Notes under the pieces: model-generated | The model's input: the letters and a program-made list of their open reading frames with translations, nothing else | What the model was told of the DNA's origin: nothing | The model's database searches: none | Shown here: one piece after another, positions 45,460 through 53,177 of the stretch | How the letters are laid out: each line of letters starts with the position of its first letter | Position numbering within the stretch: position 1 is the stretch's first letter | Made by a program: the position numbers and the translations under genes | Assembly (NCBI GenBank): GCA_943328975.2 | Contig: CALQCC020000001.1 | Coordinates: 124,001 to 188,000 of the forward strand | Source of the DNA: Bordetella parapertussis | Lineage (GTDB): Bacteria > Acidobacteriota > Terriglobia > Bryobacterales > Bryobacteraceae | DNA: 64,000 nt | Reading direction: 5' to 3'

Positions 45460-46140
45460 CTAGTGGCTGTGCGCTTGACGGCGCAGCGAATCAATTTCGT
45501 TGGCGAACTCGCCTTGGCGCATTCGCACCGACGCGAGAATGGTGGCTAGGCACAACATTGCGAGCCAGTTCCAATACATCGGGGTTTCCAGTCCAGGTCC
45601 CATCCCGCCGCCTTCGCGGAAACCGAGCACCGGGGAGGGGTGTTGGGTCCGATACCACGCGATCGATTGGTATACGAACGCGACGTTCACGCAACCCAGA
45701 ATCGACATAAAGGCGCTCAGGCGCGCGCGCTGCGTCGGCTCAGTGATTGCTTGCCGCAGCATCACGTAGCCGTAATACATCAACAGGCACACCAGCATAC
45801 TGGTCAGGCGAGCATCCCACGTCCACCAGATGCCCCACGCGTAGCGAGCCCAGATCATGCCGGAGATCAAGTTTGCAGTGGCGAATGCCAGAGCCACTTC
45901 CGTCACGCCTGCTGCAAAGGCGTCGTATTTCAGCTTGCCGGTGGATAGGTAGAGCACGCTTGCCACCAGCGCAGTCACAAAGCCTGTGAAGGCAGTAAAG
46001 GCAGCCGGCACATGGAAGTAAATAATCTTGTACGCGCCGACATTGGTGACTTGCGCGGGCAGTTCCAGGACCGTGATCCCGTTCCACAATAAGATTCCCG
46101 CGAACACCGCAGCTAGTAGAAAGAGTATGTTTTGCCGCAT
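45460..46140 (-). CDS. ccmC: Heme exporter subunit CcmC
   Basis: A 226-residue protein with six membrane helices and the WWD heme-handling loop W-G-I-W-W-T-W-D-A-R-L-T-S, flanked by His residues (F-H-V-P-A and later H). CcmC presents heme to CcmE in the periplasm. It follows ccmB with 3 bases between them. Length and motifs are typical. Confidence 0.94.
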   Translation of the reverse strand: MRQNILFLLAAVFAGILLWNGITVLELPAQVTNVGAYKIIYFHVPAAFTAFTGFVTALVASVLYLSTGKLKYDAFAAGVTEVALAFATANLISGMIWARYAWGIWWTWDARLTSMLVCLLMYYGYVMLRQAITEPTQRARLSAFMSILGCVNVAFVYQSIAWYRTQHPSPVLGFREGGGMGPGLETPMYWNWLAMLCLATILASVRMRQGEFANEIDSLRRQAHSH

Positions 46141-46143
46141 GTT

Positions 46144-46815
46144 TTACCCCACTAAAACGTCATCTATAAATAGCACAGTGGCTGCCGTAAACGCGACGTC
46201 GAAGGCCACCAAAACGCGGAGCCAGACCATGTTGGTCGCAATAGGGACGCCCGCCAACAGATCCGTGGTGAGGATCATCGCCGACATCAATACCGGAATC
46301 AGGAACGGATAGATCAACACTGGCAGCATCAGTTCCCGCATGGTCAGGTTTACCGTCAGTGCGCTGAACGCTGTGCCGATCACCGACATGCCCCACGTCG
46401 CCAGGACCATCACCAGCAACAGAAGTCCGAGCTTTCCCGCCAGCCGCACGTCGTACAAGACGGCGAAGAAGCCCAGCGACACAAGTTCGACGATCATCAA
46501 GAGCGCAAAGTTCCCACAAGCTTTTCCCAGGAAGATCGCACTGGAGGGTGCGGGTGAAGAAATCAACGCGTCCAGGCAATCATTCTGTAGTTCCCGCGCG
46601 AAACTCCGATTCAGCACCAGCGCGCCCGCGAAAGAATAGGCCAGCCACAGAAGGCCGCCCAGCATGCCCTTGAGGTCCTCTGCCTGGTCGAAGGCGAAGC
46701 TGAACAAAATGAGGATCACCACGGAGAACGAGACCGAAGCATTCAGTGCTTCTTTGGTCCGCATTTCGGAACGCAGGTCCTTGGCCGCGATGGTCCAGAT
46801 TTGGCGCAGGTACAC
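46144..46815 (-). CDS. ccmB: Heme exporter subunit CcmB
   Basis: A 223-residue protein with six membrane helices. Starts with GTG 46815, which shares its G with the ccmA TAG stop (TAGTG). Family stretches include W-T-I-A-A-K-D-L-R-S-E-M-R-T-K-E and L-N-R-S-F-A-R-E-L-Q-N-D-C-L-D-A-L. CcmB is the permease of the CcmA2B2 ABC unit that powers release of holo-CcmE. Confidence 0.94.
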   Translation of the reverse strand: MYLRQIWTIAAKDLRSEMRTKEALNASVSFSVVILILFSFAFDQAEDLKGMLGGLLWLAYSFAGALVLNRSFARELQNDCLDALISSPAPSSAIFLGKACGNFALLMIVELVSLGFFAVLYDVRLAGKLGLLLLVMVLATWGMSVIGTAFSALTVNLTMRELMLPVLIYPFLIPVLMSAMILTTDLLAGVPIATNMVWLRVLVAFDVAFTAATVLFIDDVLVG

Positions 46816-47516
46816 TATTGCTCTCCGTAGGTCCTGTACAGCCAGCCGGTATCTTGCAGCATTTCGCTTTGCCGTTCGCCGTCGTAGGCGACCTGTCCAC
46901 GTTGGATGAAGGTCACGTGCGTGGACAATTCCATCGCCTCGCGCAGTTGGTGCGTGGACATCACGACAGTGCGTCCGCGATCCCGCATCTCTTTGAGCAT
47001 GGATTGCAGCACCGCGATCGCTTTGTCGTCAAGTGAGGTGAACGGTTCGTCGAGCAACAGTAATTCCGGATCGTGCAGGAAGGCTCTGCCGATGGCGAGG
47101 CGTTGCCGCATGCCGCGTGAAAACTCCCTAGCCAGCCCATCGCGCACGCGACCGAGCCCTACGCGGTCCAACATGGCGTCTGCTTTCTTGCCCGCGTCGT
47201 CGAGTCCGTAAAGACTGCCGAACATGGTGAGGTTTTCATGCGCCGACAGTTCGTCGTAGACCGAGATGCTGTGGCCGAGTACGCCGATCCGCCGTCGTGT
47301 CGCCGGTTCGCGGGCTTCCGCCCCGTGTACTTTCACCGAGCCTTGAGACGGTTGCGAAAGACCCGCCATGATGCGCAGAAGCGTGGTCTTACCCGCGCCA
47401 TTGCGACCGAGAAGCGCCACCACCGAGCCGGCCTCCACTTTGAAAGAAACATCGCGCAGAGCAGGGAAGTCACCGAAAAACTTGTAGACGCCCTCCACCG
47501 CGAGCGCGTGGCTCAT
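46815..47516 (-). CDS. ccmA: Heme exporter ATPase CcmA
   Basis: Encodes 233 residues from ATG 47516, overlapping the upstream stop as ATGA; the longer frame runs into that gene. Walker A G-R-N-G-A-G-K-T-T-L, signature F-S-R-G-M-R-Q-R-L, Walker B L-L-L-L-D-E-P-F-T-S-L-D and H-loop S-T-H are all present. It hydrolyses ATP to free heme-bound CcmE from CcmC/D. Confidence 0.93.
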   Translation of the reverse strand: MSHALAVEGVYKFFGDFPALRDVSFKVEAGSVVALLGRNGAGKTTLLRIMAGLSQPSQGSVKVHGAEAREPATRRRIGVLGHSISVYDELSAHENLTMFGSLYGLDDAGKKADAMLDRVGLGRVRDGLAREFSRGMRQRLAIGRAFLHDPELLLLDEPFTSLDDKAIAVLQSMLKEMRDRGRTVVMSTHQLREAMELSTHVTFIQRGQVAYDGERQSEMLQDTGWLYRTYGEQ

Positions 47517-48481
47517 GCCGTGCCGCGGCGAAACAGCAATGTGCCGCCCAGCAGTAGGATCGAGAAACTTATCCCGAGCACCCACGACATTTGTTTGTTG
47601 ACCCGAGCTGGCGTTTCCTCGCAACACTTCGGCGCGCCGCTCTCTTCGCCTGCTGCGGGAGCTACGGCTTCCGCCGGCCGAATGGAGCCGACACCAAGGA
47701 TGTCCACTTTGAAGGAGTTTCCCTTGAAAGAGTACACGCGAGCTTGCGTGGATGCTTCCTGTCCCAGGTCCGAGAGTCCGTCGCCCGAGAGTGTCACCGT
47801 GCCGGGTGTAACCAGTTTGGTCGCGGGTTCGGTTGAAAACACTTTACCAGAAAATGTTGCGGACGCGGGTAGGGAGTACTCCAAGTCGAAACGCGTCTCG
47901 CCCGGTTTCAACGGATAATTGATCTTGTATTGCCCCGATTGTTTGCCTTTTTCTACAGGCCGCTGAATCGGCACTCCGGTGGAATCGATACTGACCTTCA
48001 AATCCGCGGGGACGCCTTCAGGTAGGTACAGCCGCAAGGAACCGTTCGCTGTATCTTGATATGTCGTGGTGGAATTATTCTTGGTGAAGAAGGTCTCACT
48101 GATGTGGAGCGAGGTCGCGCTCGGCTCGATCAGGATCAAATGCTGCGTGGTCATGTCAGCCGGTGCTTCGGCTGTGGCTTCAAATACGTTGACCCGCACG
48201 CCCGTGGTGGGCGTACCCGGTGGGATCGCCTGTGTGTAGGTAACTCCGGCGTAGGTGCTTTGCAAGAGGGCGGGACCCGGTGGAATGTTTACGTCGATGT
48301 TGAAGGACCCATCCGCTCCCGACTTGGTTTGCCCCAACGCCTGCATTCCATTTGCCCCGGGTTGGACCAGATTGATCGCCACGTCCGCTTGCGGTTTTCC
48401 TGTGGTGCCGTTCACCGCTAGCCCGTTCACTGCTGCAAATGCAGGCAGCGCGGCTACGACCATCCAAATTACCGCTCTCAT
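47513..48481 (-). CDS. Exported, membrane-tethered protein in the ccm operon, unknown role
   Basis: Encodes 322 residues from ATG 48481, overlapping the upstream stop as ATGA and itself overlapping ccmA as ATGA. A signal peptide ending in AFAA precedes a carboxypeptidase-regulatory-like beta domain (G-L-A-V-N-G-T-T-G-K-P-Q-A-D-V) and a second beta domain (E-T-F-F-T-K-N-N-S-T-T). A Cys pair (C-C-E-E-T) lies just before a C-terminal membrane helix and a short basic tail (FRRG). Not a known Ccm protein. Coupling on both sides suggests a role in heme or apocytochrome handling. Confidence 0.75.
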   Translation of the reverse strand: MRAVIWMVVAALPAFAAVNGLAVNGTTGKPQADVAINLVQPGANGMQALGQTKSGADGSFNIDVNIPPGPALLQSTYAGVTYTQAIPPGTPTTGVRVNVFEATAEAPADMTTQHLILIEPSATSLHISETFFTKNNSTTTYQDTANGSLRLYLPEGVPADLKVSIDSTGVPIQRPVEKGKQSGQYKINYPLKPGETRFDLEYSLPASATFSGKVFSTEPATKLVTPGTVTLSGDGLSDLGQEASTQARVYSFKGNSFKVDILGVGSIRPAEAVAPAAGEESGAPKCCEETPARVNKQMSWVLGISFSILLLGGTLLFRRGTA

Positions 48482-48912
48482 GCCATAGCCTTTCCGCACT
48501 CGCCACAGAATTTCATGCCGGAAGAAAACTGCGCGCCGCAATGCGGACATGCGGTTGGCAGGTTTGCTTCAAGAACTGGTGCGGGAGCAGGCGCCGCCGC
48601 TGGGACCACTTCCGTAGCGACTGCGACCGTGCGAGCAGCGCCCCCTGCTTTTACCCGGTCCATTTCCGCCATCACGCCGGCTAGCTCTTTCTGCAAGCCG
48701 ACCTTGGTTTGTTGATAGTCAGCGTCCGACAATTTCCCCACGCGATATTCAAACTGTAAGTCGCGCAAGTTTTCGTAGATGGCAGCGCGCCGTTCCTCCA
48801 GATGATGCACTGGGGATAGCGGTGCGACTTCTGGAATGTCTTGTGGACGGACGAAGAATGTGAAGGCAACTGTCAGCACGATAAGCGCTACGGCGGAGGC
48901 AAGCAGTATCAT
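48478..48912 (-). CDS. CcmI/CycH-like membrane protein with C-terminal zinc ribbon
   Basis: A 144-residue protein. An N-terminal membrane helix (about 1-20) is followed by the helical stretch I-Y-E-N-L-R-D-L-Q-F-E-Y-R-V-G-K-L-S-D-A-D-Y, like the first part of CcmI/CycH, which escorts apocytochromes. The C-terminus is a zinc ribbon, C-P-H-C-G and C-G-E-C-G, linked by a Pro/Ala stretch. No TPR domain is present, unlike full-length CcmI. It starts in the ccmH stop (TAATG) and ends in the next start (ATGA). Confidence 0.78.
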   Translation of the reverse strand: MILLASAVALIVLTVAFTFFVRPQDIPEVAPLSPVHHLEERRAAIYENLRDLQFEYRVGKLSDADYQQTKVGLQKELAGVMAEMDRVKAGGAARTVAVATEVVPAAAPAPAPVLEANLPTACPHCGAQFSSGMKFCGECGKAMA

Positions 48913-49388
48913 TAGTCGAATTTCTGCAGATCCTTGTCGATTTGGTCCTGATAGCGCGCCAACTCTGCGTCATTGGCGGGTGTGACCACGGGAGCCGGTT
49001 TCAACTTCTTCATGCGGCTGATCACGAAGAATACCGCGAGCATGCCCACGCCTAGCGCAATGTAGGGCCCAGTGAATCCGAAGATCCCAGGAGGGACCAC
49101 CAGCACCTGCGGTCCTTGATCCTTCACATATTGATCCAGTATCTGCTGCTGGCTCATGCCCGACTTCAGCATGTTGGCGATGCGAATTTTATTTTCCTTG
49201 CACACCGGGCATACGCCGGAAGGCGGCATCACGCAGGCCATGTTGAGATGGCATCCGCAATTGCAGTTGAGCTTCGCCGCAATCCCGTTGACTGCGGGCG
49301 TTTCGTACTCGCTGGCAGTCTGCGCCACGCACAAAGTCGCGGCCACAGCTACCAGAAGACTAGCTTTGAATTTTCTCAGGGCTAACAT
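48912..49388 (-). CDS. ccmH: CcmH/CycL-like thiol protein, variant Cys motif
   Basis: Encodes 158 residues from ATG 49388 (GTG 49394 possible), with a signal peptide ending in CVAQ and a C-terminal membrane helix. The usual L-R-C-x-x-C-Q is replaced by L-N-C-N-C-G-C-H, followed by a second group G-V-C-P-V-C; the helix I-A-N-M-L-K-S-G-M-S-Q-Q-Q-I-L-D and V-L-V-V-P-P match CcmH. It should reduce apocytochrome CxxCH cysteines before heme attachment. Its 5' end overlaps ccmF. Confidence 0.82.
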   Translation of the reverse strand: MLALRKFKASLLVAVAATLCVAQTASEYETPAVNGIAAKLNCNCGCHLNMACVMPPSGVCPVCKENKIRIANMLKSGMSQQQILDQYVKDQGPQVLVVPPGIFGFTGPYIALGVGMLAVFFVISRMKKLKPAPVVTPANDAELARYQDQIDKDLQKFD

Positions 49389-51381
49389 GTCCACCTACCC
49401 CCGTGCTGACTACTTCCATGCGCGGAAAGACTAATTTCTTCTTGTCTGGAACCAAGCAAACCAAGGTGCCGAAGAGCACCACCAGGAACCCGATCCAGAT
49501 CCAACTTACTAGCGGAAACACATACGTCTGCATCACGACGTTGCTACCCGCTCCGGTGCCCGCGAAGTTGATATACACGTCTTCGTTGAGCCGCCGCCGC
49601 AATGCTACGTCGGTGGTCGGCGTCTGCGAGGCCACAAAAAACCGCCGTTCGGGCTTCTCAATACTTAGATGTTCGCCGTTCTTGGAAAGATCCACCACCA
49701 CCCGGTCCCAGCGATACTGGTCGTTTTCGCCTTCTTCGTAGCCGGTGACTTTGATCGTGTAGGGACCCAGTTGTACCGATTCGCCCTGCGCCAGTTCCAC
49801 GGTCTTGTCGATGTTGAACGCAGCGCCGGTGAAGCCAATGAACATGATCACGATGCCGACGTGCACCAAATACCCGCCGTAGCGCCGCGTATTGCGATGC
49901 GTCAATTCGATCATGGCCGCGATGATATTCTGTCCGGACTTGGCGCGAATGGCTCGCGAGCCCTTCCAGAACTCCATCGCGACAGTGGTGAGAACGAACG
50001 CGCAGAGAGCGAAGGACACCAGAGCGTAGATGTGGCGCATGCCCATCGCGATCAGAGTGCCGCTGACCAAAAGACCTACGATGGTGGGCCACTTGAAGGC
50101 GCGTTGTAGACTTTCAAACGAACTTTTCCGCCACGCGATCAGTGGGCCGATGCCAGTGAGCAACAACAGGAACAGTGCGATCGGGATGTTGACTCGATCG
50201 AAGAACGGCTTGTCCACGCTGATCTTTTCGCCCATCGTGTACTCGGTGATCACCGGGAACAAAGTGCCCCACAGGATGGAGAAGCAGCTGGCGAGCAGCA
50301 CCAGGTTGTTGAACATGAAGCTCGATTCGCGCGAGAGCACGCTCTCCAGTTGCGATTCGCTCTTCAGGAAGTCAAGTCGGCTGAGCAATAGGTAGACCGT
50401 CGCTGCGATTCCGATGGCGAGGAATGTTACGAAATACTGTCCGATGGGGCTTTCCGCAAACGCATGCACCGATTGCACAATGCCGCTACGCGTGAGGAAG
50501 GTGCCGAAGATGCAGAGGAAGAAAGTGCTCGAAACCAGCACCATGTTCCAAACCTTCATCATGCCCTTCTTTTCCTGCATCATGACGGAGTGCAAGAAGG
50601 CCGTACCGGTGATCCACGGCAGCAACGATGCGTTCTCAACCGGATCCCAGGCCCAATAACCGCCCCAGCCTAGCACAGCGTACGCCCAGGCGGAACCCAG
50701 CACGATGCCGCAACTCTGGAACAGCCAAGTCACCAGCGTCCAACGGCGCGTGGTTTTGATCCACTCTTCGCCCGGTTGCTTGGTGATCAGCGATCCCATG
50801 GCGAAGGCGAACGGGACGGCGAAGCCAACATAGCCGAGGTACAGCATGGGCGGGTGAATCACCATGGTCCAATACTGCAGCAGCGGATTCAGGCCCTGTC
50901 CATCGCCCAAATCGACCACACCCTTGCCAGCCATCAGCAAGCGGAACGGGCTAACGACGAAGGCGTTCAGGATGAGAAAGAACACTTGCGTGGACATCAA
51001 TACCGCGATGACATACGGCATCATCTCGCGGAATTTCTTGCGGTTTTGGTAGGTGACTACAGCGGAATAAGTCGCGAGCAGCCAGCTCCAGAAGAGCAGG
51101 GAACCGGCTTGTCCACCCCACCATGCCGCAAACTTGTATTGGATCGGCATGGTCTTGTTGCTGGTTTCCCAGACGTAGGCCAGCCGGTAATCGCCTTGGA
51201 TGATGGAGTAAACTAGAACCCCCGCGCCCACCGTAACCAGGACCCATACGGTGTACACCGCGCGTTGACCGCTCTGGATCAGAAACGGCCGCTTCGTCAG
51301 CTTGCCAATAACCGATCCCAGCAATGCATAGATCGCAAAACAGAATGCGAGCAATATGGCGAGAGCGCCTAGATTTTCCAT
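49360..51381 (-). CDS. ccmF: Cytochrome c heme lyase subunit CcmF
   Basis: A 673-residue protein with about 15 membrane helices and the WWD-type loop G-W-G-G-Y-W-A-W-D-P-V-E-N-A-S-L-L-P-W, the signature of CcmF/CcsA/CcmC heme-handling proteins. W-W-G-G-Q-A-G-S-L-L-F-W-S near residue 90 and M-V-I-H-P-P-M-L-Y-L-G-Y-V-G near 175 are also typical. CcmF takes heme from CcmE and attaches it to apocytochromes with CcmH. It overlaps the ccmH start by 29 bases. Confidence 0.96.
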   Translation of the reverse strand: MENLGALAILLAFCFAIYALLGSVIGKLTKRPFLIQSGQRAVYTVWVLVTVGAGVLVYSIIQGDYRLAYVWETSNKTMPIQYKFAAWWGGQAGSLLFWSWLLATYSAVVTYQNRKKFREMMPYVIAVLMSTQVFFLILNAFVVSPFRLLMAGKGVVDLGDGQGLNPLLQYWTMVIHPPMLYLGYVGFAVPFAFAMGSLITKQPGEEWIKTTRRWTLVTWLFQSCGIVLGSAWAYAVLGWGGYWAWDPVENASLLPWITGTAFLHSVMMQEKKGMMKVWNMVLVSSTFFLCIFGTFLTRSGIVQSVHAFAESPIGQYFVTFLAIGIAATVYLLLSRLDFLKSESQLESVLSRESSFMFNNLVLLASCFSILWGTLFPVITEYTMGEKISVDKPFFDRVNIPIALFLLLLTGIGPLIAWRKSSFESLQRAFKWPTIVGLLVSGTLIAMGMRHIYALVSFALCAFVLTTVAMEFWKGSRAIRAKSGQNIIAAMIELTHRNTRRYGGYLVHVGIVIMFIGFTGAAFNIDKTVELAQGESVQLGPYTIKVTGYEEGENDQYRWDRVVVDLSKNGEHLSIEKPERRFFVASQTPTTDVALRRRLNEDVYINFAGTGAGSNVVMQTYVFPLVSWIWIGFLVVLFGTLVCLVPDKKKLVFPRMEVVSTGVGGHVSPEKIQS

Positions 51382-51411: not shown

Positions 51412-51822
51412 TTATCCGCGCGTTACGACGCCCGTCGGCTTGGCTTCATATTTCGAAGCGCATTTGGCCTGAACTTTGGTCGCGTGGAACGTGCCATCCG
51501 AGAGCATCTTGCCCTCGGCCAAGGCCTGCGATCCGTCCTTGAACGTATCCGGCAGCGGGTCCGAGCCTGCGTAAATGACTTCCAGCGAGAGGTTGTTCTG
51601 GATCAATGTGAACTGGACTTGATTGCCTCGGCGCACAATCGAGTTCGGCTTGATATCGCCACCGACGCGTAAACGTTTGTCGACGGTATCGGCACCCATG
51701 GCTTTCACTTCGGCGATCTCTTTGTAATAGGTGGCGGTCTGTTCCACGCCGCCCTTGGCCAGCCAGCCCAAAGTTCCCAGGATAATCGCCGCCAAAAGTC
51801 CGAACTTCATGTTCTTGCTCAT
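51412..51822 (-). CDS. ccmE: Heme chaperone CcmE, CXXXY variant
   Basis: Encodes 136 residues from ATG 51822, preceded by GGAGG. One N-terminal membrane anchor (8-22) and an OB-fold domain (L-R-V-G-G-D-I, G-S-D-P-L-P-D-T-F-K-D-G, T-K-V-Q-A-K-C). The heme-binding residue, normally His in H-D-E-x-Y, is Cys: C121-A-S-K-Y125. The CXXXY form is known from archaea and some Deltaproteobacteria. First gene of the ccm operon, with a TATAAT box 31 bases upstream of its ATG. Confidence 0.92.
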   Translation of the reverse strand: MSKNMKFGLLAAIILGTLGWLAKGGVEQTATYYKEIAEVKAMGADTVDKRLRVGGDIKPNSIVRRGNQVQFTLIQNNLSLEVIYAGSDPLPDTFKDGSQALAEGKMLSDGTFHATKVQAKCASKYEAKPTGVVTRG

Positions 51823-51852
51823 GTTATGCCTCCCCGGTACTACTCCACGTAA

Positions 51853-51858
51853 CATTAT
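51853..51858 (-). promoter_or_regulatory. -10 box for the ccm operon
   Basis: A perfect TATAAT on the minus strand, giving RNA starting near 51846 and a 24-base leader with GGAGG before ccmE. No good -35 hexamer lies 16-18 bases away, so an activator or another sigma factor may be needed. It lies between the CxxCH membrane protein gene and ccmE. Confidence 0.45.
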
Positions 51859-51872
51859 AGCGCCACTTACGC

Positions 51873-52520
51873 TTAATTCATCAGGTTGGGAGATACCCCA
51901 ACCGCCGGTTCCGTTCCATGACAGAGAAGGCAGGCCACCCGAGCCTCGCCCGGAGCCGACCAAGCCAGCGTGTACGATTGCCCTTTCATGCTCCAGGAAG
52001 ACACCCGGGCCGTCTGATAAGGGTCACTGTCGCGGGCTTCGTGGTGTGGATAGGTCGTCTTCCCCGTGGGATCTTTTGTGACCAGGAGTGCCGCTCTGTA
52101 TTCGCCTACTTCGTAGGAAATCTGAGCGATGGGATTTGTATCCTCCGTGACACTGGCTCCGATGATCCGCACCATGGCCGAATGCTTGGGCGGCAGCGGA
52201 ATATCGATCCCGGAGTTCGTTCTCACCCAATTCCGCACGTCGCCCGCGTTTTCGGTATGTAGGCCCAGATCTTCAGGACCCTGGCTGAGCGCAGCCACGG
52301 CCTTCGCTTCGACGGATTGAGGAGTGCGCATTTGTTGCCATAACGTCCACCCGACCGCAGTTACGGCCAGTGTAGCCGCGACCGTGACCCACGCGGTCCA
52401 GGAAGCCGAGGTTGACCCCGCTGACGCAGGCTGCTGCACATGGTTCCACAAATTCGCCGGAGCTTCCACGCGCGCCAAGTGCTTCTTTAGAACCGGATCC
52501 AAATTGTTTTCTAAACTCAT
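51873..52520 (-). CDS. Membrane protein in anti-sigma position with exported CxxCH heme motif
   Basis: A 215-residue protein: a short charged cytoplasmic N-terminus (1-40), one membrane helix (41-61), and an exported domain ending in A-C-L-L-C-H-G (CxxCH at 197-201), a covalent heme c attachment motif. It starts 21 bases after an ECF sigma stop and precedes the ccm operon. Position and topology suggest an anti-sigma factor whose exported tail binds heme. There is no classic zinc-finger HxxxCxxC in the N-terminus, so sigma binding is inferred. A plain membrane-anchored monoheme protein is the alternative. Confidence 0.78.
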   Translation of the reverse strand: MSLENNLDPVLKKHLARVEAPANLWNHVQQPASAGSTSASWTAWVTVAATLAVTAVGWTLWQQMRTPQSVEAKAVAALSQGPEDLGLHTENAGDVRNWVRTNSGIDIPLPPKHSAMVRIIGASVTEDTNPIAQISYEVGEYRAALLVTKDPTGKTTYPHHEARDSDPYQTARVSSWSMKGQSYTLAWSAPGEARVACLLCHGTEPAVGVSPNLMN

Positions 52521-52541
52521 TCGTTACTTCCTTACCAGCCT

Positions 52542-53093
52542 TTACTTCTTCACCAGCGGGCCTAGCCGCCGCTCCAGGACTTTGTGAGCCCGATTTAGCC
52601 GCGACGCAACCGTCCCTCGCGAACACTGCAAAACGTCTGCGATCTCTTCATACGACAAGCCTTCGGTGTAGCGCAGAACCACAACCATCCGATGTTCCGG
52701 TGCCAGGTTCGCGACCACGCCCTGGATCTGCTGCTGCATTTCGTCCTGCATCAGGCCTTGTAATGCGGTCGGTTGCGGAGCCCGGAAGGTATCGAAAAAC
52801 TCTTCCACCATGGGTAGCCACCGCTTTTGACGCCGCCTGTGATCCATGCAACTGTTGACCACCAACCGGTAGAGCCACGAATCAAAGGTTGATTCGCCAC
52901 GGAACTGCCCGATGCGGGCCATCAACTTCACAAAAGTGTCCTGCGCGATGTCCATGGCGGCCGCCTGGTCGCCCGCATACCGCAAGGCAATGGAGTACAC
53001 CTTGTCCTTGTGGGACTCAAATAGCGAGCGGAACGCGTCTTCGTCCCCGCGCTGGCAGCCTTCGATGACTTCGTGGTCGGTGTCCACTACCAT
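52542..53093 (-). CDS. ECF-type RNA polymerase sigma factor
   Basis: Encodes 183 residues from ATG 53093, chosen for GAGGAAA upstream; ATG 53162 is possible. Region 2: D-E-D-A-F-R-S-L-F-E-S-H-K-D-K-V-Y-S-I-A-L-R-Y and D-I-A-Q-D-T-F-V-K-L; region 4: L-A-P-E-H-R-M-V-V-V-L-R-Y-T-E-G-L-S-Y-E-E-I-A-D-V-L. RpoE-like. It directs transcription from specific promoters, with control probably by the next gene. It lies 84 bases after rlmA on the same strand and upstream of the ccm operon, a likely target. Confidence 0.9.
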   Translation of the reverse strand: MVVDTDHEVIEGCQRGDEDAFRSLFESHKDKVYSIALRYAGDQAAAMDIAQDTFVKLMARIGQFRGESTFDSWLYRLVVNSCMDHRRRQKRWLPMVEEFFDTFRAPQPTALQGLMQDEMQQQIQGVVANLAPEHRMVVVLRYTEGLSYEEIADVLQCSRGTVASRLNRAHKVLERRLGPLVKK

Positions 53094-53177
53094 GCCGTGT
53101 CTTTCCTCTACGACGTTTGTCGGTGGAGGAAACTTCCCGGCATTTTCTTCGCCGTTTGGCATAGTGGCGATTGTATT

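Follow-up and report, generated by a model that had tools for sequence, protein, structure and literature searches.

A probable membrane anti-sigma factor with a conserved, putative haem c site directly upstream of the cytochrome c maturation operon

The 64 kb stretch of contig CALQCC020000001.1 analysed in this work, hereafter the window, belongs to a genome of 4.34 Mb in 69 contigs. It carries, all on the minus strand, a gene for an ECF (extracytoplasmic function) sigma factor, an anti-sigma-like gene, and the cytochrome c maturation (Ccm) genes in the order ccmE-F-H-I-x-A-B-C (51822-45460). We propose that the first two genes form an autoregulated sigma/transmembrane anti-sigma switch for cytochrome c biogenesis, in which the anti-sigma factor would itself be a client of the Ccm machine, and would report its capacity; the probability assigned to this reading is about 0.43. 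To our knowledge, little is understood of how the amount of the haem-attachment machine is adjusted to demand in bacteria. The pair would make this question directly testable, since a sigma switch, the ccm operon and a putative haem c site are combined in what is probably a single transcription unit, the promoter can be read, and a wider family exists in the phylum. If true, the proposal would add to the known repertoire an anti-sigma factor carrying covalent haem and a loop that controls the quality of a post-translational modification, and would place ECF systems among the outputs of sensing by covalent haem.

According to the proposal, the N-terminus of the anti-sigma factor would hold the sigma factor, and the single CxxCH of the periplasmic tail would most likely be loaded with haem c by the neighbouring Ccm machine. 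As long as haem and Ccm capacity suffice, the holo anti-sigma factor would be stable and the sigma factor held. When capacity falls short, the tail would remain unloaded, and be oxidised or degraded, and the sigma factor would be freed; both the loss of the apo-form and the sign of the response are presumed. The freed sigma factor would transcribe its own gene and that of the anti-sigma factor, the ccm operon, and certain genes for cytochromes and thioredoxins, up to the point at which loading has recovered. A more specific version, to be taken as tentative, is that one haem c site, borne in some species by a nearly bare tail, may be the entire sensor of cytochrome c assembly capacity, the unloaded site freeing the sigma factor and raising ccm and cytochrome gene expression. 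The features read directly from the sequences are the operon order, the conservation of CxxCH, an anti-sigma domain in relatives, and a common promoter at some targets.

The sigma factor and its partner

The sigma factor gene (52542-53093, 183 residues) is recognised by Pfam (Sigma70_r2, 1.5e-19, residues 47-114, and Sigma70_r4_2, 1.4e-14, residues 144-192, numbered on the 206-residue open reading frame, ORF) and by NCBIfam (sigma70-ECF, 5e-34). Translation starts most likely at the ATG at 53093. The longer start at 53162 is disfavoured, because the conserved promoter described below would fall inside that ORF. The gene is followed after 21 nucleotides by the anti-sigma-like gene (51873-52520, 215 residues), which is separated from ccmE (51412-51822) by 50 nucleotides. 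Its product is made of an N-terminal APxxLW segment, a helix, an outer domain and a tail carrying CLLCH. Translation of the ORF and hydrophobicity confirm what the earlier note had read in this region, coordinates included: CLLCH spans residues 197-201 (codons at 51918-51932) and is followed by 14 more residues, and the protein has a single hydrophobic stretch (residues 42-60) and no second one. One hydrophobic stretch is likewise found in 17 of 17 members of the family.

The window protein has no match in Pfam at E<=1, and the HxxxCxxC zinc-binding anti-sigma domain (zf-HC2) is absent from it by the same test. Two weak anti-sigma matches were obtained with NCBIfam (8e-4 and 1.3e-3), far below the cut-off, within residues 11-83. 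An AlphaFold2 model built from two sequences has a mean pLDDT (predicted local distance difference test score) of 38.9. Identification of the protein as a membrane anti-sigma factor, supposed in the earlier note, is nonetheless strongly supported, because relatives carry zf-HC2: the domain was found in G224 (1.7e-7) and G225 (7.8e-10), and also in G529, and in the G225 protein zf-HC2, helix and a tail ending in ACGHCHRN follow each other in this order. By this comparison, the window protein is a relative of class I anti-sigma factors which has no metal site.

Conservation of the CxxCH motif

Searching 299 genomes of the class with the protein gave matches in 18, own genome included, and CxxCH was found in the matching frame in 15 of the 17 others (26-62% identity). 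Four more members carrying the motif were reached by position or through the sigma factor. ccmE was placed in 288 of the 299 genomes, and 60 of the 288 ccmE regions were retrieved; these gave three extra sigma-ccmE loci (G113, G161, G293), each with a CxxCH protein between sigma factor and ccmE. A sigma search, run in 12 genomes, added G225. Overall, a sigma gene and a CxxCH protein lie directly 5' of ccmE in ten genomes (G000, which is the own one, G193, G243, G080, G173, G129, G273, G113, G161 and G293). Conservation of CxxCH and synteny with ccm, on which the earlier note had staked its proposal, are thus both supported, CxxCH being kept in most relatives. The complete ccm order was confirmed in G193, G243, G080, G173, G129 and G273; in G113, G161 and G293 the retrieved stretch covers ccmE and ccmF only. 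In G267 the contig starts within the anti-sigma gene, the ccm genes follow, and the order was confirmed as far as the start of ccmB. A direct search of the contigs of close relatives gave one real locus, L005, from a metagenome-assembled genome of Bryobacterales (61%); the second match, L006, was discarded as spurious.

All 17 sigma-adjacent members examined carry CxxCH; 13 of them, own included, came from the anti-sigma protein search, and G113, G161, G293 and G225 were added as described. As a background, CxxCH occurs in the last 40 residues of 86 of 5,453 ORFs (1.6%; ORFs of 100-350 residues in any frame of the retrieved loci, the family included). These figures, and the conservation in relatives, rule out that the motif is a chance occurrence or an oddity of one genus. 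The association is also specific. The best-scoring same-strand ORF after 16 other sigma factors (L290-L296, L300-L308) is devoid of CxxCH, with the limit that at contig ends (e.g. L291) this ORF may differ from the true neighbour. Three nearer relatives of the sigma factor (L297-L299, 45-49%) adjoin FecR-like ORFs lacking the motif, and CxxCH was seen there in one out-of-frame ORF of L299.

In an alignment of 16 members (G225 was left out) the invariant positions are AP..L, close to the N-terminus, and C..CH, close to the C-terminus, and nothing else. The residues between the cysteines vary freely (LL, AL, ML, QA, HQ, AS, GL, FI, MV, AI, GH), which is what would be expected of a haem c site. 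No further column of invariant His, Met or Cys is present in the alignment, so there is no conserved distal ligand; a fixed distal axial ligand (His or Met) is not required of every haem c protein. The organism encodes a Ccm machine, and the conserved CxxCH is predicted from the helix to lie on the exported side. System I recognises hardly anything beyond CXXCH, and peptides of 12 residues are sufficient (PMC3601427). In an organism with Ccm, a CxxCH that is exported is therefore expected to receive haem.

The cysteines could, in principle, serve without haem. CxxC is a classic redox pair, and could act as a thiol-disulfide or metal switch reading the periplasmic redox state via CcmG/CcmH, DsbA or TlpA-like partners. 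TlpA/redoxin-like genes do occur behind the promoter of this system in G129 and G273 (see below), and oxidation of the cysteines competes with the attachment of haem to them (PMC3420020). Yet, the His after the second Cys, needless for a thiol switch, is as invariant as the cysteines, and haem loading by Ccm is what one would expect of an exported CxxCH. We consider such a switch improbable.

The outer domain is much less constrained than the motif. Five members of the clade defined by the window sigma factor have a reduced outer domain, with CxxCH still near the end: G161 (126 residues), G145 (138), G113 (153), G225 (156, zf-HC2 included) and G293 (168). In G161 the outer domain is nearly gone, and the CxxCH tail is kept. 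A shrunken outer domain combined with a retained tail would fit a reporter that needs the attachment site only, and a client of Ccm is favoured because some members retain little beyond helix and tail. That versions with hardly any outer domain occur in nature suggests that a sensor of haem attachment may be easily built.

The promoter of the sigma factor and its occurrence elsewhere

The motif GGAAG-N17-CGTC, an ECF-type promoter, is found 5' of the sigma gene, exact in 15 of 16 loci; the sixteenth, G161, has TGAAG-N17-CGTC, so that all 16 conform if T is allowed for the first G. G225, outside these 16 loci, carries the motif as well. In the window the promoter (53112-53137, minus strand) lies 18 nucleotides before the ATG at 53093, and the pattern tested has no other exact match in the 64 kb. 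The presence of the motif at the sigma gene makes autoregulation probable. Paralogous ECF sigma genes located beside FecR-like ORFs (L297, L299) share GGAAG-N17-CGTC, and the two sigma systems may cross-talk. The same motif recurs in a distant family (G305; L153 5344-6868), followed by a sigma gene and then by a CxxCH anti-sigma gene whose product has no HxxxCxxC string.

The gene ccmE has its own -10-like element, TATAAT, at 51859-51854 on the minus strand, with no recognisable -35. The earlier note had described it in these terms and taken it as a hint of special control; the description holds, the interpretation does not. Among 58 loci in which ccmE has no adjacent sigma gene, 47 carry TATA[AC]T before ccmE, and the hexamer is common in loci with an adjacent sigma gene too. 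The element looks like an ordinary basal ccmE promoter, and the special promoter sits 5' of the sigma gene.

In some genomes a promoter of the sigma type is found at ccmE in trans. GGAAG-N15-18-CGTC is present within 330 nucleotides 5' of ccmE in 4 of the 58 regions lacking an adjacent sigma gene (G145, G210 with a 16-nucleotide spacer, G225, G017). The sigma gene resides elsewhere in the genome in the first three; G017 was counted among the others, its sigma status not being checked. The promoter is thus found at ccmE in three of the seven genomes in which the pair is located elsewhere, against 1 of the 54 other loci among the 58. Seven of the genomes covered by the sigma search, all lacking the motif at ccmE (G004, G133, G258, G063, G101, G105, G290), have only sigma factors of 41% identity at most.

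Other candidate targets were sought with a stricter pattern, which gave six sites in the own genome (one with the reversed-pattern control) and 68 in 16 relatives. A regulon drawn from raw pattern counts was abandoned, since totals did not exceed those of the reversed control, and only placed sites were used. Of the sites of the 17 genomes, 65 distinct ones were analysed, nine others being self-sites of sigma genes, along with 70 of the control sites. A CxxCH protein is the best downstream ORF at 7 of 64 sites, a fraction that is conservative because the self-site filter removed just one sigma self-site, and at 1 of 70 control sites (one-sided p 0.023). When TlpA-like proteins are added, the figures are 9 and 1 (p 0.006). 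Both p-values are too good, because the seven sites correspond to about three gene families. The promoter precedes large cytochrome genes in G000 (DUF1587 by Pfam), G193, G243 and G080 (these three by likeness), a small PSCyt1-type cytochrome gene in G000 and a similar gene in G193, and a class I-like cytochrome gene in G080, below the Pfam cut-off. It also precedes TlpA-like genes in G129 and G273, and the G129 protein matches AhpC-TSA and Redoxin. A tie between the pair and cytochrome c biogenesis is supported by like promoters, which stand at ccmE in trans and before certain cytochrome genes.

The wider family and the weight of the alternatives

When 396 genomes of the phylum were searched with a profile, 39 gave a match, and 30 loci were retrieved, own included. 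CxxCH is found near the C-terminus in 19 of the 30, and 17 of these 19 also have the HxxxCxxC string; the other 11 lack CxxCH. In a tree of 51 sigma factors, CxxCH partners fall in two distant groups, a picture that is descriptive only, as the rows were partly chosen for the motif. A plasmid search gave two anti-sigma factors, from Burkholderia and Cupriavidus, with a related outer domain, both devoid of CxxCH. A sensor fold may have gained CxxCH, and the zinc motif may have been lost later in the branch of the window; the order of these events is conjectural.

Several observations weigh against a Ccm client that reports capacity. In the phylum-wide relatives the outer domain is kept in full, with endings of the type GLTYALVSDLEERGQQSCIVCH. 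A gene encoding a protein with two CxxCH motifs lies near the anti-sigma gene in 4 of the 10 loci with a gene list (18 were retrieved; L155, one of the ten, gave no gene). Such neighbours and a full outer domain would suit a redox or peroxide sensor better. The charges flanking the helix speak for an N-terminus on the inner side in 10 of 17 members, are even in four, and contradict this in three, among which the window protein (0 before, 2 after). Two of the 17 search matches, G057 and G083, have no CxxCH. Four genomes with the sigma gene elsewhere (G089, G296, G224 and G275; G224 is among the 58 ccmE regions, the others were examined separately) have no such promoter at ccmE. Genome-wide totals of the stricter pattern are no higher than those of the reversed control (74 and 79, respectively, in 17 genomes), and the excess of cytochrome genes among the placed sites appears modest. 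As to the G057 relative (L037 9184-9546), it is a protein of 120 residues which adjoins a sigma gene, keeps N-terminus and helix, and lacks CxxCH; it is possibly a variant that lost the tail.

The four genes for two-CxxCH proteins near phylum-wide CxxCH anti-sigma genes are located at L138 3766-5073, L139 4388-5581, L142 4203-5600 and L150 7971-9428. Two products were scanned: the L138 protein matches CCP_MauG (2.6e-58), a di-haem peroxidase match, and the L142 protein has no match in Pfam. Along with the full outer domain, these genes sustain the main rival explanation, by which haem c is a sensor of redox state, gas or peroxide: the state of the bound haem (oxidation, NO, O2, peroxide) would alter the outer domain and free the sigma factor, which would adjust cytochrome and ccm genes. 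Periplasmic sensing by haem c is established, sCache_heme (DUF3365/Tll0287) being a sensor fold that reportedly gained CXXCH (PMC12889525, a preprint), and the plasmid anti-sigma factors hint at a similar acquisition here. Still, in the five short members little is left to build a haem pocket, and there is no invariant column of distal His or Met. This explanation seems to us rather unlikely, and shares with the client reading a focus on haem c.

An ordinary pair, controlled by RseA-like proteolysis, in which both CxxCH and the ccm neighbourhood have no signalling role, would be a third alternative. The pair resides away from ccm in seven genomes (G089, G296, G145, G210, G225, G224, G275), and four of the seven have no promoter of this type at ccmE. 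On the other side, the remaining three do have it, CxxCH outlasts most of the outer domain, and the motif is missing from the best ORFs after the 16 other sigma factors and the three FecR-linked relatives. We regard a passenger motif as very improbable.

The ccm operon and neighbouring genes

Matches to Pfam identify ccmE, the haem chaperone gene (PF03100, 1.4e-24), ccmF (49360-51381; PF16327, 6.9e-62, and PF01578, 5.7e-38), ccmH (48912-49394; PF03918, 1.2e-7), ccmA (46815-47570; ABC_tran, 1.2e-33), the start of which is not settled, as the ORF opens at 47627, and ccmB (46144-46815; PF03379, 1.1e-29). ccmC (45460-46140) was named by sequence, position and gene order in relatives. The CcmH site reads LNCNCGC...CPVC, a cysteine-rich arrangement which we take to be unusual. 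An ORF at 48478-48912 encodes a CcmI-like N-terminus (TIGR03142, 3.9e-4, below the cut-off) joined to a C-terminal zinc ribbon (Zn_ribbon_3, 1.7e-6). It is followed by a gene (47513-48550) for a 345-residue protein without a Pfam match, which is kept in the same place in six relatives and in the short G267 contig, at 31-76% identity; the CcmI-like protein with zinc ribbon is kept in the same seven genomes. The 345-residue protein is possibly an unrecognised component of cytochrome c maturation. Immediately 5' of the sigma gene, two relatives, G243 and G080, have a cytochrome c7-like gene with three CxxCH motifs (L026 8450-8857, L027 8701-9111); the L026 protein matches PF14522 (4.5e-9).

Comparison with known systems

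The earlier note knew of no anti-sigma factor using covalent haem, and none was found in the literature searched (haem c anti-sigma factors, control of ccm by ECF sigma factors, ECF classification, haem c sensors, and also microperoxidase peptides and apocytochrome degradation), a scope outside which most subscription journals fall. A search by terms found no mention of heme, cytochrome or CXXCH in PMC7406223, and of heme, cytochrome or CXXC in PMC8103513. Sensors using haem c are known among chemoreceptors, kinases and GGDEF/EAL proteins, as reported in the preprint PMC12889525, the text of which contains no word beginning with "sigma".

Several systems resemble the one described in part. Class I anti-sigma factors (zf-HC2, or ZAS, zinc-binding anti-sigma) are similarly encoded right after an ECF sigma gene, have one helix, and an ECF-type promoter before the pair, and relatives of the window protein carry zf-HC2 or HxxxCxxC; in contrast, the window protein has no HxxxCxxC, and has an exported tail with CxxCH. 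The sCache_heme proteins are periplasmic sensors with one conserved CXXCH, reportedly gained by an older haem-free fold (PMC12889525). The system of the window differs in having an anti-sigma factor as output, a motif near the C-terminus, an outer domain mostly lost in part of the clade, and no Pfam match: DUF3365/Tll0287 was not found in the window protein at E<=1, and the G225 and L150 relatives match only zf-HC2 at E<=0.001.

In HasS/HasI, too, control linked to haem passes through an anti-sigma factor. HasS, in contrast, answers haem uptake via HasA/HasR, and not through a covalent haem of its own (PMC11442138). Monohaem c-type cytochromes and haem-tagged proteins of Ccm System I share with the window protein an exported CxxCH, nearly the sole feature recognised by System I (PMC3601427). 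They differ from it since the CxxCH of the window protein is joined to an anti-sigma factor and a helix, without a match to Pfam cytochromes. Finally, RseA, in the RseA/DegS/RseP system, is a type II membrane anti-sigma factor the loss of which frees the sigma factor (PMC10024687); for the pair of the window the same course is a proposal only, and the signal proposed is a different one, namely a missing haem.

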